DNA of 59,494 bases from Bacteroidota bacterium (GTDB lineage: Bacteria; Bacteroidota; Ignavibacteria; UBA10030; UBA8401). Shown here one piece after another: positions 46,318 to 52,042 of the stretch (position 1 is its first letter; every line of letters starts with the position of its first letter). Location of the stretch: positions 1-59,494 of the forward strand of contig WBUG01000014.1 of assembly GCA_008933835.1 (NCBI GenBank), in the 5' to 3' direction. Both the position numbers and the translations under genes were made by a program. The notes under the pieces are model-generated. The model searched no databases and had not been told where the DNA came from. It saw only the letters and a program-made list of their open reading frames with translations.

Positions 46318-46659
46318 TTAGCGCCGCTGATCGGCGAACATCGGCGCGGTCTTCTTGGCCTCGATGAAGACGTCGGACCCCATCGGCGTGCTCAACAGGG
46401 GGGTGCGTACGGACATGTCGACTCCGGAGGGCTGCACGGTCATCGTTTCTCGGCCTGTAAGGAGCCAGTTGATGTTGCAGCCGAGGTCGATGAGCTTCAC
46501 GAGCAGGACCGGTCCGGGCAGGCTTCGACCGTTGAGGTAACCGGAATAGAGGGTGGATGGATTCATTTCGAGGGCTTCGGCGAACCGCTTCATGGTGCCG
46601 AACTTCTTGTAGCCGAACAGACGCAGGTTCTGCGCCACTTCTTTCTTGTTGAGCTTCAT
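46318..46659 (-). CDS. small Xre/CI-like helix-turn-helix regulator
   Basis: 113 residues. The N-terminal ~70 residues form a CI-type HTH: MKLNKKEVAQNLRLFGYKKF, then a recognition segment in TMKRFAEALEMNPSTLYSGY, and a closing LGCNINWLLTG, as found in phage-repressor-like domains. The C-terminal ~40 residues are unstructured-looking, with no LexA protease domain. GGAGGAGAGGA precedes ATG 46659. It is the last gene of the minus-strand run, 95 bases after the cytochrome genes. A palindrome ACAATTGT lies just upstream of it and could be its operator. Target unknown. Confidence 0.8.
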   Translation of the reverse strand: MKLNKKEVAQNLRLFGYKKFGTMKRFAEALEMNPSTLYSGYLNGRSLPGPVLLVKLIDLGCNINWLLTGRETMTVQPSGVDMSVRTPLLSTPMGSDVFIEAKKTAPMFADQRR

Positions 46660-46754: not shown

Positions 46755-47126
46755 TCAGTTGTCGCGGGCGCCCTGATCGATCCAGGCGCGGAAGAGATTC
46801 ACCTCGTCCGGCGTCATTTTTTTCTTCGAAAAGATGGGCATTTGCGCCCCTTTTGGCGGGTTGGGGAGGAGCTTCACGATGAGGTAACTACCGTCAGCAT
46901 TGCCGGGCACCACCATGTTCGCGGTCTTGCCGCTCCGTTTGACGAGGTCGACCGATTCCATGGCGTAGTTGCTCGGGTTCTCATCGTCGCGTTCGTGACA
47001 CTTGATGCAGCGGGCTTTGACGATGGGGAACAGGTCCCGGGAATAAGAGACCTCCCGCTTCTCCTGGGCGGCGGCTGACGAGAGGACGAGGAGGAGGGCG
47101 ATGACGATGTAGGGCGATCGGTGCAT
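46755..47126 (-). CDS. single-haem c-type cytochrome, PSCyt1-like domain (third of set)
   Basis: 123 residues. A signal peptide (to about AAAQE, residue 21) is followed by SYSRDLFPIVKARCIKCHER with the haem motif CIKCH at 40-44. A later Met (AQMPIFSKKKM) is the probable axial ligand. The chain ends FRAWIDQGARDN. The layout matches the Planctomycete-type cytochrome c domain. It should be an exported electron carrier. It starts 14 bases after its paralogue's stop. The Met at 47126 is preferred to an upstream TTG that overlaps the preceding stop. Confidence 0.85.
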   Translation of the reverse strand: MHRSPYIVIALLLVLSSAAAQEKREVSYSRDLFPIVKARCIKCHERDDENPSNYAMESVDLVKRSGKTANMVVPGNADGSYLIVKLLPNPPKGAQMPIFSKKKMTPDEVNLFRAWIDQGARDN

Positions 47127-47140
47127 GGCGGAACGGCGCG

Positions 47141-47506
47141 TCAATTGTTCTTCGCCCCCTGGTCGATCCAGCGGGTGATCATCTCGATGGTCTCGGGTTC
47201 CAGCGGCTTCCGGCCGCGCGGCATCGGCCGGCCGAAATCGGTGGTGCCGAGGAGCTTTTTGACGAGCACGCTCTCCGCTCCCTTCCGCGGAAGGACGACC
47301 GGACCATGCCGGCTGTCGCCACGCATCAGTTCCTTGTAGTTGTCGAGGTACAGTCCGCTCGGGCTCTCGTCCTCGGTGTTATGGCAGTTGAGGCACTTCT
47401 TCACGAACACCGGCATCACGTCCTTGGAGAAGGAGACCTTCGTTTCCTTCTCCTGAGCGGAGAGGATGGCGGCAGTGAGGAGGAGGAGCATCATCGTTCG
47501 CATCAT
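47141..47506 (-). CDS. single-haem c-type cytochrome, PSCyt1-like domain (second of set)
   Basis: 121 residues. Signal peptide (LLLLTAAILSAQ), then SFSKDVMPVFVKKCLNCHNT with CLNCH at 38-42; an axial-Met candidate in FGRPMPRGRKPLEPE; ends TRWIDQGAKNN. It is clearly paralogous to its two neighbours. The open frame extends upstream to 47761 through the neighbouring gene in another frame; the ATG at 47506 (or 47503) gives the signal peptide. Spacing from the TIG-cytochrome stop is 20 bases. Confidence 0.85.
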   Translation of the reverse strand: MMRTMMLLLLTAAILSAQEKETKVSFSKDVMPVFVKKCLNCHNTEDESPSGLYLDNYKELMRGDSRHGPVVLPRKGAESVLVKKLLGTTDFGRPMPRGRKPLEPETIEMITRWIDQGAKNN

Positions 47507-47526
47507 ACGTCGTTCCCCGTCATGGT

Positions 47527-48162
47527 TCAATTGTTCGGAGCGCCCTGATCGATCCATTGCACGAACTTCAGGATCTCGTTCTCCGGCAGGGCCGAGCCGC
47601 CGAGAGGCATCCGCGCGCCGGCGGTTCCGCGGAGCTTCCGGACGAGGCGGCTCCCTTCGCCGTCGAACGGCACCACGGCGGCGCCGCTGTTCCCGCCGGC
47701 CATCAGCGATGCGTACGTCGTCACCGTGAGCCCACCCGAACCGCCGTGACAGCCGGCGCAACCCCGTGCGGTGAAGATGGGGGCGATGTCGGCAGCGAAA
47801 CTGATGGCGACCGTTCCGAGCACTTTGAAGGAGCGGCCCGTGGAGGCGGTGCCGTTCACCGTGACCTTCACCGCACCCGTGACGGCACCGGCCGGCACCG
47901 TCGTCCGCAGCAGCGTGTCGGTCCAGACGCCGACGGGGGACGCGGTCACGGCGCCGAACGCGATGGTGCTGGTACCCTGTGCAGCGCCGAACCGGGAACC
48001 GCTGATGGTGACCGTATCGCCGACGGCACCGGAATCCGGCAGAATGGTCGTGATGACCGGGGCGTTCGACGGGGCCGCGGGCGGCGTCACCGGGTCACCC
48101 AGATCGTCGCACGAGGCGGCGAAGAACGCCGCGAGCAGGGAAAGGAGCAGGGGGTATCGCAT
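47527..48162 (-). CDS. lipoprotein with TIG/IPT domain fused to a PSCyt1-like cytochrome domain
   Basis: 211 residues. A lipoprotein signal ends FFAASC, placing the lipidated Cys at 18. Residues about 33-115 form an IPT/TIG immunoglobulin-like domain (VITTILPDSGAVGDTVTISG, then GAVKVTVNGTASTG). The C-terminal domain has CAGCH at 135-139, an axial-Met candidate in ARMPLGGSALPENE, and ends VQWIDQGAPNN. ATG 48162 is chosen because AGGA lies 8 bases upstream; ATG 48177 is possible. It probably sits in the periplasm or outer membrane beside the barrel encoded just upstream. Confidence 0.85.
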   Translation of the reverse strand: MRYPLLLSLLAAFFAASCDDLGDPVTPPAAPSNAPVITTILPDSGAVGDTVTISGSRFGAAQGTSTIAFGAVTASPVGVWTDTLLRTTVPAGAVTGAVKVTVNGTASTGRSFKVLGTVAISFAADIAPIFTARGCAGCHGGSGGLTVTTYASLMAGGNSGAAVVPFDGEGSRLVRKLRGTAGARMPLGGSALPENEILKFVQWIDQGAPNN

Positions 48163-48180
48163 CGATCGGTTCCTCATGGA

Positions 48181-49311
48181 TCACAGGAAGAAATGGAACA
48201 TGACATGCAGTTCGTCGTTGGAAAGCTCCGTGAGGGACTCACGGTTGATGCGGTACACCGGACGCACTTCGACGCCCGTGAGCGGGAAGAACTCAGCGCC
48301 GACGGAGATGCGCGAGACGGAAGCGTCCTGCCGCGCGTCGTTCGGATCGTAGAACTCGTACCCGACCTTGAGGTCGATGCCCTCCGTGATGACGTAGTTC
48401 GCCTCCGTGAAGATGACGACACCGTTCACCGTGCGCAGGAGCGATGTGTTGTACGACTGTATCATGTCCGCTTCGGCCATCAGCGTGAGATTGCCGTCGT
48501 ACGTCACGATGCCGAATCCGCCCCATGACTGGGTGACGCGTCCGCCGCCGGTCGGCAACCGGTACAGTGAACCGCCGAGCAGGATGTTGAACGGGCCCGC
48601 CTCGAACGCGGCGTCACCGCGCACCGCGACCGCCTTCGACGTGCTTCCACCCGCTCCCGCCAGACCGCCTTTGCGTCCGTTGAAGACCCCGGCATTGAAC
48701 GTGAAGATGGAGGGATTGAACCCCACTTCCAGTCCCGTATCTTCGCTCCCTTGTCCGAATCCGAGACCTGCCGGATAGGCGGAGAGCGCCGGGTCGATGG
48801 GGGCGAACGGTCCGTTCCGGATGAAGAGAGTATGATCGTCCATGCGGAGACCGTAGGCGGGGATGAAATTCCCCACTTTCACGTATCCGTCCAGCGGCAG
48901 CACCTTCGCCAGACCGAACACTTCGAATCCGGAATAGAGTCCCTTGTCGAAATAGATCCTGAACTTTTTGTTGAGACGGAGGTCAAGGTAGAGGTCCCCC
49001 TGCATCTGGAAGAAGGAGGTGGCCGTCGTGGACTGCATGTAATAGAAAAGGGTCCGGTAATCCATTCCGATGGTGAACACGTCGTTGAGCGCGGGGGAGA
49101 ACTCCTCGATGTCGGTCCGCTCCTTGAACGTCGTCATCGTCAGCTCTTCGCGGCCGTACGTGGAGCCGAACGTGCTGCGCATCCCTTTGCCCGAGGGATT
49201 GATGTGGCAGGACTGGCATTTCGCCCCCTGGCGGGTCGCGAATTTCGGCAGCGCGTCGAGTGAGGAGGCCGCGACGGCCACGGCGATGAGCGGCATCAAC
49301 CATCGTTTCAT
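48181..49311 (-). CDS. outer-membrane beta-barrel with N-terminal CxxCH haem motif
   Basis: 376 residues. A signal peptide (to about 20) is followed by KFATRQGAKCQSCHINPSGK, with the haem-c motif CQSCH at 32-36 and GKGMRSTFG after it. The remainder is beta-rich with many short amphipathic strands and ends DELHVMFHFFL, an aromatic-rich barrel-like C-terminus. This combination suggests a porin carrying one haem at its periplasmic mouth. First gene of the cytochrome run. GGGAG lies 6 bases before ATG 49311. No MtrB- or OmcF-type relationship can be claimed. Confidence 0.8.
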   Translation of the reverse strand: MKRWLMPLIAVAVAASSLDALPKFATRQGAKCQSCHINPSGKGMRSTFGSTYGREELTMTTFKERTDIEEFSPALNDVFTIGMDYRTLFYYMQSTTATSFFQMQGDLYLDLRLNKKFRIYFDKGLYSGFEVFGLAKVLPLDGYVKVGNFIPAYGLRMDDHTLFIRNGPFAPIDPALSAYPAGLGFGQGSEDTGLEVGFNPSIFTFNAGVFNGRKGGLAGAGGSTSKAVAVRGDAAFEAGPFNILLGGSLYRLPTGGGRVTQSWGGFGIVTYDGNLTLMAEADMIQSYNTSLLRTVNGVVIFTEANYVITEGIDLKVGYEFYDPNDARQDASVSRISVGAEFFPLTGVEVRPVYRINRESLTELSNDELHVMFHFFL

Positions 49312-49351
49312 GTTCGACTCCCGGTGAATGGTGAAGCAACGATTCCGAAAG

Positions 49352-49380
49352 AATGTATCACAATCGGCTTGTTTATGCAA
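49352..49380 (-). promoter_or_regulatory. promoter of the cytochrome-barrel operon
   Basis: Minus strand: TTGCAT, a 17-base spacer, then TACATT. The predicted start of transcription near 49345 leaves a leader of about 34 bases before the barrel ATG. Confidence 0.7.
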
Positions 49381-49407: not shown

Positions 49408-50499
49408 TCACAACGTGCGGCGTCGGTTCTTGAGGTAATCCACGAAGATGTATTGACCGAGGTCGCCGAGTGACGAATAGTATGCCCGGCCTTTGTTCGC
49501 CTTGGTGAGTTCCTCCACGAAGCCGATGAGGTACGGGTCCTGCGCGATCATGAAGGTGCTGATGGTGATGCGTTCACGCCGGCACTGCACCGCCTCGTCG
49601 AGCGTTTTGTTGACGATCTTCGGGTCCAGTCCGTACGGGTTCTTGTAGAGCCGGCCGGATTCGTCGAACATGGCCGAGGGCTTCCCGTCGGTGATCATGA
49701 AGATCTGCTTATTGGCGTTGCCGCACTTCCGCAGGAGGGTACGGGCCATCTGCAGACCGGCCCGTGTGTTGGTGTGGAACGGTCCGACCTGGACGAACGG
49801 GACCTCGGCGAGACTGATGAGACGGGCGTCGTCGCCGAAGGTGAGGCAGGCGAGGTAATCCTTCGGGTACTTCGTCTGGATGAGCTCGGCGAGCGCCATC
49901 GCCACCTGCTTGGCGGGCGTGATCCGGTCCTCGCCGTAGAGCACCATGCTGTGCGAGATGTCGAGCATGACGACGGTGGCGCAGGAGGAGAGGTGCTCCG
50001 ACTCATAGACCTCGAGGTCCTCTTCGTTCAGCCGGAATTCGTCAATGCCGTCCCGCGTGAGCGCATTGGTCATCGTGGCGGTGAGGTCGATGTCCGCCGG
50101 CCTGTCTCCGAAGGTCCACTTCCGCGTTTCACTGACGCGTTCGACCCCCGTGCCGGTCTTCGGCGTCTCGTGGGAGCCGGGCCGGCTCTTCCGGAGCGAG
50201 GAGAAGATCTCAGCGAGCGCGTCCCGACGGATGCGCTGCATCCCTTTTCCGGTCATCCGGTGCACGCCGTCGACCTCTTCGATGAGGCCCATCTCCTTCA
50301 GGCGGCGCAGGAGCTCTTCGAAAGGCAAATCGTCGTCGAAGATGCCGTGTTCCCGGCCGAGCTGGCGGAGCCACTCGAGCGCTTCGTCCACATCGCCGCT
50401 GGTCTGCAGTACGAGGTAGTTGAACAGCTTCAGCAGCTGCTCGAGGCGCTGTTCGTCCGTCGCGGAACCGTCGCTCCAACGCGAATACAGGAATCGCAT
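49408..50499 (-). CDS. VWA-domain protein partnered with an AAA ATPase
   Basis: 363 residues. An N-terminal helical part (about 1-130) is followed by a von Willebrand A domain with an intact MIDAS: VVMLDISHSMVLYGEDRITP (DxSxS) and FMITDGKPSAMF. Its start lies just inside the ATPase gene's end (stop 50505-50507). I chose ATG 50499 because GGGGG lies about 10 bases upstream; a TTG at 50508 is possible. Such VWA proteins act with MoxR/chelatase-type ATPases in metal insertion or complex remodelling. Substrate unknown. Confidence 0.85.
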   Translation of the reverse strand: MRFLYSRWSDGSATDEQRLEQLLKLFNYLVLQTSGDVDEALEWLRQLGREHGIFDDDLPFEELLRRLKEMGLIEEVDGVHRMTGKGMQRIRRDALAEIFSSLRKSRPGSHETPKTGTGVERVSETRKWTFGDRPADIDLTATMTNALTRDGIDEFRLNEEDLEVYESEHLSSCATVVMLDISHSMVLYGEDRITPAKQVAMALAELIQTKYPKDYLACLTFGDDARLISLAEVPFVQVGPFHTNTRAGLQMARTLLRKCGNANKQIFMITDGKPSAMFDESGRLYKNPYGLDPKIVNKTLDEAVQCRRERITISTFMIAQDPYLIGFVEELTKANKGRAYYSSLGDLGQYIFVDYLKNRRRTL

Positions 50500-50504
50500 C
50501 GCGG

Positions 50505-52016
50505 TCAATCCCCCTCATCGATGTCGCCGGCGCGTCCGCTGAAGATCTGGCCGACCATGTCCTTGTAGACGGCGACGTGGTCCACCTCCTCCTTCGCGAT
50601 GCGCGAGTTCTGATGCAGACCGTCCAGGACGAACTCCATGGCGGTGGCGAGACCGTACGGATCGTCGTCGCCGAGCTTGAAGTGCTTCATCGTCACCTCC
50701 TTCAGTCCGGGCACGCGGGCGAGTTCCGCGCGGTACGCGGCGAAGGGCATGTCGTCCGACAGCATCAGGGAGTTCCCCTGTTCGAACCACCGAACGACGG
50801 GAGTGTACTCGTTCTTCGGTGTCTGTTCGGTGGACGCGGACGACTCGCGTCGTCGCGGCCGCTGCAGCGGGTCGGGGAAATACCGGGCGAACACCGTCCG
50901 GGTCGCCTTGCCGATGAGCGCTTTCCCCACCTTCATCGCTCCCTCTTGTTCCCCCTCGAACACCAGTTCCACCTTCCCGGTGACGCCGGGAAGGACGTGC
51001 GGTAGGTCGCACATACGGGGGACAATGCGCTCTTCGCCGAGCAGGATGGCGCGCCGTTCGGCGTTGCTGACCAGGTTCTCCATCGCGGCGATGGTGAGGC
51101 GGGCGCTGACGCCCGATTTCTGGTCCACGAACTCCGAACGCCTCGCCTCGAACGCGATGCTCTCGATGATCTCTTTGAAGTAGTGCGGAATGACGGCAGG
51201 GGCGCCGTTCCGTTCCGTCCATGCCTCCTGTCCGGTGATCTCGATGGCGTCGTCGAGGGTGCGGGGATAGTGCGTAAGGATCTGGGAATCGATGCGGTCC
51301 TTCAGCGGCGTGATGATGCTGCCGCGGTTGGTGTAGTCCTCCGGATTGGCGGTGAAGACGAGGAAGACGTCCAGCGGGATGCGGATGTTGAACCCGCGGA
51401 TCTGGACATCCTTCTCCTCCAGGATGTTGAAAAGCCCCACCTGGATGCGGGGCTGGAGGTCCGGGAGTTCGTTGAGGGCGAAGATGCCCCGGTTGGAGCG
51501 GGGGATGAGGCCGAAATGGATGGCACCTTCGTGCGAGTAGTGCAGACGCTGCGTCGCCGCCTTGATGGGGTCGATGTCACCGATGAGGTCGGCGATGGTG
51601 ACGTCCGGTGTCGCCAGTTTCTCGCTGAAACGCCGTTCGCGGTGGAGCCAATCGATCTCCGTCTCGTCCCCCTCGTCCCGCAGCCGGTCCGAGCCGAACT
51701 TGCTCACCGGACGGAACGGATCGTCGTTCACTTCACTCCCCTTGATGACCGGGACGTATTCGTCCAGCAGCGACGGCAGCATTCGGATGATCCGGGTCTT
51801 CGCCTGGCCGCGGAGCCCGAGCAGGATGATGTCATGCCGGGCGAGGATGGCGTTCACGAGGGCGGGTACCACCGTGGTCTCGTACCCGATGATGCCGGGG
51901 AAGAGAGGCTCCCGCGCCTTGAGCTTGGTGATGAGATTGGCGCGCACCTCCTCCTTCACGGGAACCGTGCGGTACCCGCTCCGTTTCAGTTCGCCCACCG
52001 TACGAGGTCTGTTCAT
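50505..52016 (-). CDS. MoxR/Mg-chelatase-like AAA+ ATPase
   Basis: 503 residues. Walker A is GLRGQAKT (67-74), the GxxGxAKT form of the MoxR clade. The Walker B-like segment reads GIFALNELPDLQPRIQVGLF with Asn-Glu where Asp-Glu is usual, then the DVQIRGFNIRIPLDVF and VFTANPEDYTNRGSIITPLK (sensor 1/Arg finger) region. ATG 52016 is chosen with AAGGAG 12 bases upstream; a GTG at 52037 is possible. With the VWA gene it forms a two-gene unit from a strong promoter. Confidence 0.88.
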   Translation of the reverse strand: MNRPRTVGELKRSGYRTVPVKEEVRANLITKLKAREPLFPGIIGYETTVVPALVNAILARHDIILLGLRGQAKTRIIRMLPSLLDEYVPVIKGSEVNDDPFRPVSKFGSDRLRDEGDETEIDWLHRERRFSEKLATPDVTIADLIGDIDPIKAATQRLHYSHEGAIHFGLIPRSNRGIFALNELPDLQPRIQVGLFNILEEKDVQIRGFNIRIPLDVFLVFTANPEDYTNRGSIITPLKDRIDSQILTHYPRTLDDAIEITGQEAWTERNGAPAVIPHYFKEIIESIAFEARRSEFVDQKSGVSARLTIAAMENLVSNAERRAILLGEERIVPRMCDLPHVLPGVTGKVELVFEGEQEGAMKVGKALIGKATRTVFARYFPDPLQRPRRRESSASTEQTPKNEYTPVVRWFEQGNSLMLSDDMPFAAYRAELARVPGLKEVTMKHFKLGDDDPYGLATAMEFVLDGLHQNSRIAKEEVDHVAVYKDMVGQIFSGRAGDIDEGD

Positions 52017-52042
52017 TCTATCGTCGTCTCCTTTCACCGTTC

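Follow-up and report, generated by a model that had tools for sequence, protein, structure and literature searches.

A Cyc2-related cytochrome-porin and three PSCyt1 cytochromes as a candidate outer-membrane electron conduit in Ignavibacteria

What is the role of a porin that carries its own haem motif and is encoded in one row with three small exported cytochromes? Such a set of genes is found on contig WBUG01000014.1 of a Bacteroidota bacterium of the class Ignavibacteria (assembly GCA_008933835.1), within the 59,494-nucleotide stretch analysed here, hereafter the window. A preliminary description, made from the letters of the DNA, took the set for a small module that transfers electrons across or at the outer membrane. 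This reading is supported by the haem-motif barrel, the three exported monohaem cytochromes and the conserved neighbourhood described below. We consider it probable that the four proteins form an outer-membrane electron conduit in which inward flow is favoured.

Gene layout and predicted products

The cluster spans 46755-49311 on the minus strand. Inspection of open reading frames found the haem-motif barrel gene followed by the genes of three exported monohaem cytochromes, all four in a row as first described. Directly upstream, a VWA gene and a MoxR-type AAA gene are co-directional with the barrel gene. The features are as follows.

48181..49311, minus strand: fused monohaem cytochrome-porin, 376 aa, with an N-terminal haem-motif domain before a predicted 16-strand barrel
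49204..49218, minus strand: CQSCH (residues 32-36), the motif for haem attachment, with NPSGKGMR after it
48187..49077, minus strand: predicted 16-strand beta-barrel, residues 79-375, OprO/OprP-like (AlphaFold, fold search)
47527..48177, minus strand: lipoprotein with a TIG/IPT domain and a PSCyt1 monohaem cytochrome domain (Pfam match, model)
47827-48060, minus strand: TIG/IPT domain of the lipoprotein
47605-47760, minus strand: PSCyt1 domain of the lipoprotein
47141..47506, minus strand: exported monohaem cytochrome of the PSCyt1 family, with its haem domain at 47219-47395 (Pfam match)
46755..47126, minus strand: exported monohaem cytochrome of the PSCyt1 family, with its haem domain at 46866-47009 (Pfam match)
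49408..50508, minus strand: VWA-domain protein, upstream of the barrel gene
50505..52037, minus strand: MoxR/Mg-chelatase-type AAA ATPase, upstream of the VWA gene

The spacing of 14-20 bases given earlier holds for the gaps after gene 2 and gene 3 (20 nt and 14 nt), but the first gap depends on the start chosen for gene 2, being 18 nt to ATG 48162 and 3 nt to its first ATG. The last gene (46755-47126) begins at ATG. One good promoter had also been proposed, but a sigma-70 consensus scan of the 96 nt 5' of the barrel gene gave no match, with a consensus that fits Bacteroidota poorly. Just downstream of the four genes, 46318-46659 on the minus strand encodes a small protein that matches CI-repressor/HTH_3-like domains weakly; its gene is absent from the equivalent position in the relatives displayed.

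In the barrel protein, the signal peptide is followed by ALPKFATRQGAKCQSCH, and CQSCH starts ten residues past the signal peptide. C32, C35, H36, R45, M103, K145, H160 and E195 are invariant among 73 aligned relatives. The outer-membrane barrel that had been proposed for 48181-49311 is borne out by an AlphaFold model with 16 strands (pLDDT 86.6, pTM 0.85), which run from residues 79-92 to 367-375 with a small N-terminal domain ahead of them. The closest solved folds are those of OprO (Z 24.8) and OprP (Z 24.0), and the diffusion porins Omp32 and VhChiP are also among the matches. The protein would carry a covalently attached haem c, and its N-terminal haem domain would be located in the pore. 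Searches of Pfam and NCBIfam found no family that covers the protein, and a search of solved structures by sequence, with either the single sequence or a profile, returned nothing credible. A match to choice-of-anchor V was rejected at 15 bits against a cut-off of 42 bits.

The three small proteins carry the haem motifs CAGCH (47527-48177), CLNCH (47141-47506) and CIKCH (46755-47126). They had been described as exported CxxCH proteins, the first a lipoprotein, and this agrees with their export signals, with the lipobox AASC of 47527-48177 and with their matches to Pfam PSCyt1 (PF07635), which reach 29.1, 28.0 and 25.9 bits against a gathering cut-off of 22. Since the whole genome has four PSCyt1 matches and three of them are these proteins, the clustering of their genes is not due to chance. 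Among the PSCyt1 partners, CxxCH, Met190-Pro191 and a terminal WIxxGA are invariant. Met190 is a possible sixth haem ligand, and the pattern is consistent with His/Met ligation.

The model of the TIG lipoprotein is confident and combines a beta-sandwich with a haem domain made of helices. Its fold matches were filled by TIG-domain structures, and therefore the assignment of its cytochrome part rests on sequence. A profile of the PSCyt1 partners compared with solved structures found FoxE as the best relative (E 3.6e-15), with hydrazine synthase alpha and PccH also found; a single-sequence search with one of the cytochromes did not reach FoxE. FoxE (PDB 5MAB) and PccH (4RLR) are thus related to the partners at the profile level. 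However, FoxE, a cytochrome of photoferrotrophic Fe(II) oxidation, is dihaem and acts with FoxY/FoxZ and no porin partner, and PccH stands alone. The PSCyt1 domain also links all three proteins to the PSCyt (Planctomycete-specific) cytochromes. In Verrucomicrobia and Planctomycetes these are usually fused to PSD domains (PMC5615132), whereas the proteins of the cluster are small, stand-alone or TIG-fused, and encoded beside a haem porin.

Relationship to Cyc2 and other conduits

Cyc2 is a marker gene for microbial iron oxidation. It encodes a fused monohaem cytochrome-porin, an Fe(II) oxidase whose 16-strand barrel was modelled on OprO/OprP (Keffer et al., 2021; PMC8406198), and its consensus is AXPXFAR[Q/K][T/Y] ... 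CXXCH ... PXL (PMC8406198). The barrel protein has the same architecture. Its 376 aa compare with the at least 365 aa asked of Cyc2, a single N-terminal CxxCH after the signal peptide is fused to the porin, and the predicted structure is an OprO/OprP-like 16-strand barrel. The earlier statement that the locus matches no named conduit has to be revised, since it came from a comparison with multihaem conduits only, and Cyc2, whose defining motifs are absent here, is nevertheless related by profile comparison.

In this comparison, the barrel family was set against Cyc2-motif proteins from Chlorobia and other Bacteroidota, and scored 99.1% over the full length (reversed control, 0.4%). By part, the haem domain scored 96.6% and the barrel 96.7%, with reversed and shuffled controls at 0-1.9%, so that both domains appear homologous. 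The barrel part also drew a score of 78% from one unrelated set of porins; the similarity of the barrel is therefore partly general to porins, and the haem domain is the cleaner evidence for homology to Cyc2. The spacing P-x-[FYL]-x7-CxxCH, in Cyc2 likeness P-x-F-x7-CxxCH, is found in 72 of the 73 relatives and equally in Cyc2-motif sequences.

The differences are as clear. Neither PxFAR[QK][TY] before CxxCH nor PxL after it occurs in the relatives (0/73 for each), NPTGGGMR follows the haem motif, and PSCyt1 cytochromes are co-encoded. A tree separated 37 members of the barrel family from 15 Cyc2-like sequences at 100/99 support, the Cyc2 side being limited to Bacteroidota/Chlorobia sequences and one Nitrospirota Cyc2-like protein. 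Because the defining motifs are absent from 73 relatives and the tree splits cleanly, the barrel family is, as judged from these sequences, a sister of Cyc2 and not Cyc2 itself. What is new is a sister of Cyc2 that differs from it in its motifs and has partner cytochromes of its own; literature searches, which covered sources outside subscription journals, found no description of the family.

Other conduits are built differently. MtrAB, MtoAB, PioAB and the Pcc systems of Geobacter employ separate multihaem cytochromes, and the Mtr-type barrel has 26 strands, whereas the barrel of the cluster is predicted to have 16 and each protein has one haem motif. Membership of the Mtr/Mto/Pio or Pcc systems, which combine a large barrel with multihaem cytochromes, was rejected on these grounds.

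A gene with the true Cyc2 motif, AIPAFARKYDMSCQTCH...PAPKL, is also present in the source genome (L187:3853-4380, plus strand; G000:C142). It lies directly after a multihaem cytochrome gene and is truncated by the contig end. The genome may therefore encode both kinds of haem porin. In a Nitrospirota locus (L125:7497-8939, plus strand), a Cyc2-like gene (AIPAFARREQMPCHRCHDSWPRL) immediately follows a barrel-family gene; upstream of the pair are genes for a two-component system and a dihaem cytochrome. Apart from this case, in which the motif is imperfect, no Cyc2-motif genes were found adjoining the barrels.

Distribution and gene neighbourhood

The barrel was found in 41 of 60 relatives, which are genomes of the same order. 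A pattern scan over one genome per species confirmed 247 relatives, of which the best 80 were kept. These belong to Ignavibacteria/Bacteroidota, Nitrospirota, Krumholzibacteriota, Eisenbacteria, Zixibacteria, Deltaproteobacteria (labelled Myxococcota in the tree), Gemmatimonadetes and others, although most are metagenome bins and individual phylum labels may be wrong.

Conservation of the gene order, which according to the preliminary description would support the proposed module, is evident. In 31 of the 35 loci with at least 1.5 kb of downstream sequence, 1-4 PSCyt1 genes lie directly downstream of the barrel on the same strand; counts of four probably reflect broken genes. The other four loci have no cytochrome beside the barrel, one of these stretches being masked. 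Masked sequence also accounts for an open frame of 24,413 residues in genome G031, which was rejected as no real gene. PSCyt1 neighbours occur in Eisenbacteria, Krumholzibacteriia and Troglogloeales loci as well, and the neighbours in other phyla include dihaem cytochromes, a P460 cytochrome, and YceI or cupredoxins. The VWA and AAA pair is upstream of the barrel throughout the same family of genomes only. Since the flanking genes differ in other families, the barrel and the PSCyt1 cytochromes are taken as the core, and the VWA gene is probably outside it.

Two further kinds of neighbour were observed. Just upstream of the barrels in two Ignavibacteria loci, a gene (L154:5245-5970 and L138:5359-5949) encodes an exported protein with CANCHxNPSGGGPRN, which closely resembles the haem motif of the barrel; the copy from L154 has a C-terminal sorting tail for type IX secretion. 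From its position, this protein may be a secreted haem partner. Records of Eisenbacteria, Krumholzibacteriia and Myxococcota repeatedly show a YceI-family (isoprenoid-binding) gene downstream of the barrel (L139:7090-7716, L133:6402-7016 and L134:8965-9633).

Possible direction of electron flow

Each of the 41 genomes that encode the barrel also has a gene for a haem-copper oxidase. The barrel is present in 41 of the 55 genomes with COX1 and in none of the five without it (p 0.002, not corrected for kinship), and oxidase and barrel contrast in the same way within genera, namely in g15 (G037 vs G027) and g18 (G031 vs G053 and G059). This co-occurrence fits electron flow towards oxygen, and would also fit any aerobic function.

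In the favoured mechanism, the N-terminal domain with its one covalent haem c would plug the periplasmic side of the pore of a 16-strand outer-membrane porin. A small, soluble electron donor would enter the pore and reduce the haem; Fe(II) or some other reductant in solution is the most plausible candidate. The three PSCyt1 cytochromes, of which the lipoprotein would be held at a membrane by its lipid, would accept the electron in the periplasm and pass it to the respiratory chain and the haem-copper oxidase. The module would work like Cyc2, although its porin belongs to a distinct sister family and has partner cytochromes of its own. Fe(II) is perhaps the specific donor, which is clearly less likely than the conduit itself.

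The same components could in principle run in reverse, with electrons passed from the PSCyt1 cytochromes to the haem porin and on to a soluble acceptor outside the cell, such as humics or chelated Fe(III). Monohaem cytochromes are able to work in either direction, and Ignavibacteria have been reported with EET systems and as Fe(III)-reducing relatives (PMC6137239, PMC6344600). However, a single haem is ill-suited to mineral reduction, the relatives of known role (Cyc2, FoxE and PccH) are tied to electron uptake, and the barrel keeps company with COX1 and is lacking in oxidase-less relatives; outward flow is thus unlikely. Slightly less likely still is a porin that is specific for a substrate or metal (an anion or copper, for example). 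Its haem domain would then be a plug, either redox-sensing or structural, and the cytochromes would do no more than regulate or protect. In favour of this, diffusion porins (OprP, Omp32, VhChiP) have the same fold, a binding site could be lined by the invariant H160, M103, K145 and E195, and YceI and cupredoxin genes are neighbours in some phyla. Such a porin does not readily explain why most genomes encode 1-4 cytochromes beside the barrel, nor the invariance of the haem motif and a homology that reaches Cyc2, whose haem is catalytic.

The profile match, the shared fold and the haem spacing would also agree with a divergent Cyc2 proper that has lost its consensus motif. This is very improbable, given the complete absence of the defining motifs, the 100/99 split and the presence of a Cyc2-motif gene in the same genome. 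An inward conduit thus remains the preferred reading. A broader and tentative proposal, which we find slightly less likely than not, is that Cyc2 has a second, so far unrecognised sister family of porins, widespread in Ignavibacteria and several other phyla and beyond the published Cyc2 motif screen. Each of these porins would take up electrons at the outer membrane as a single protein and feed a dedicated set of PSCyt1 cytochromes, so that bacteria not regarded as lithotrophs could draw on soluble external donors.

The published motif filter for Cyc2 would miss the barrel family, in 41 of 60 genomes of the order and in several other phyla. If electron uptake is its true function, outer-membrane electron uptake reaches further than thought. 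PSCyt1 is a broad and large family with almost no assigned roles, and the module offers a testable function for its cytochromes. The fourth PSCyt1 protein of the source genome is encoded away from the cluster (L076 / L004; G000:C56:2973-3095); its frame is about 310 aa long and has one CxxCH.
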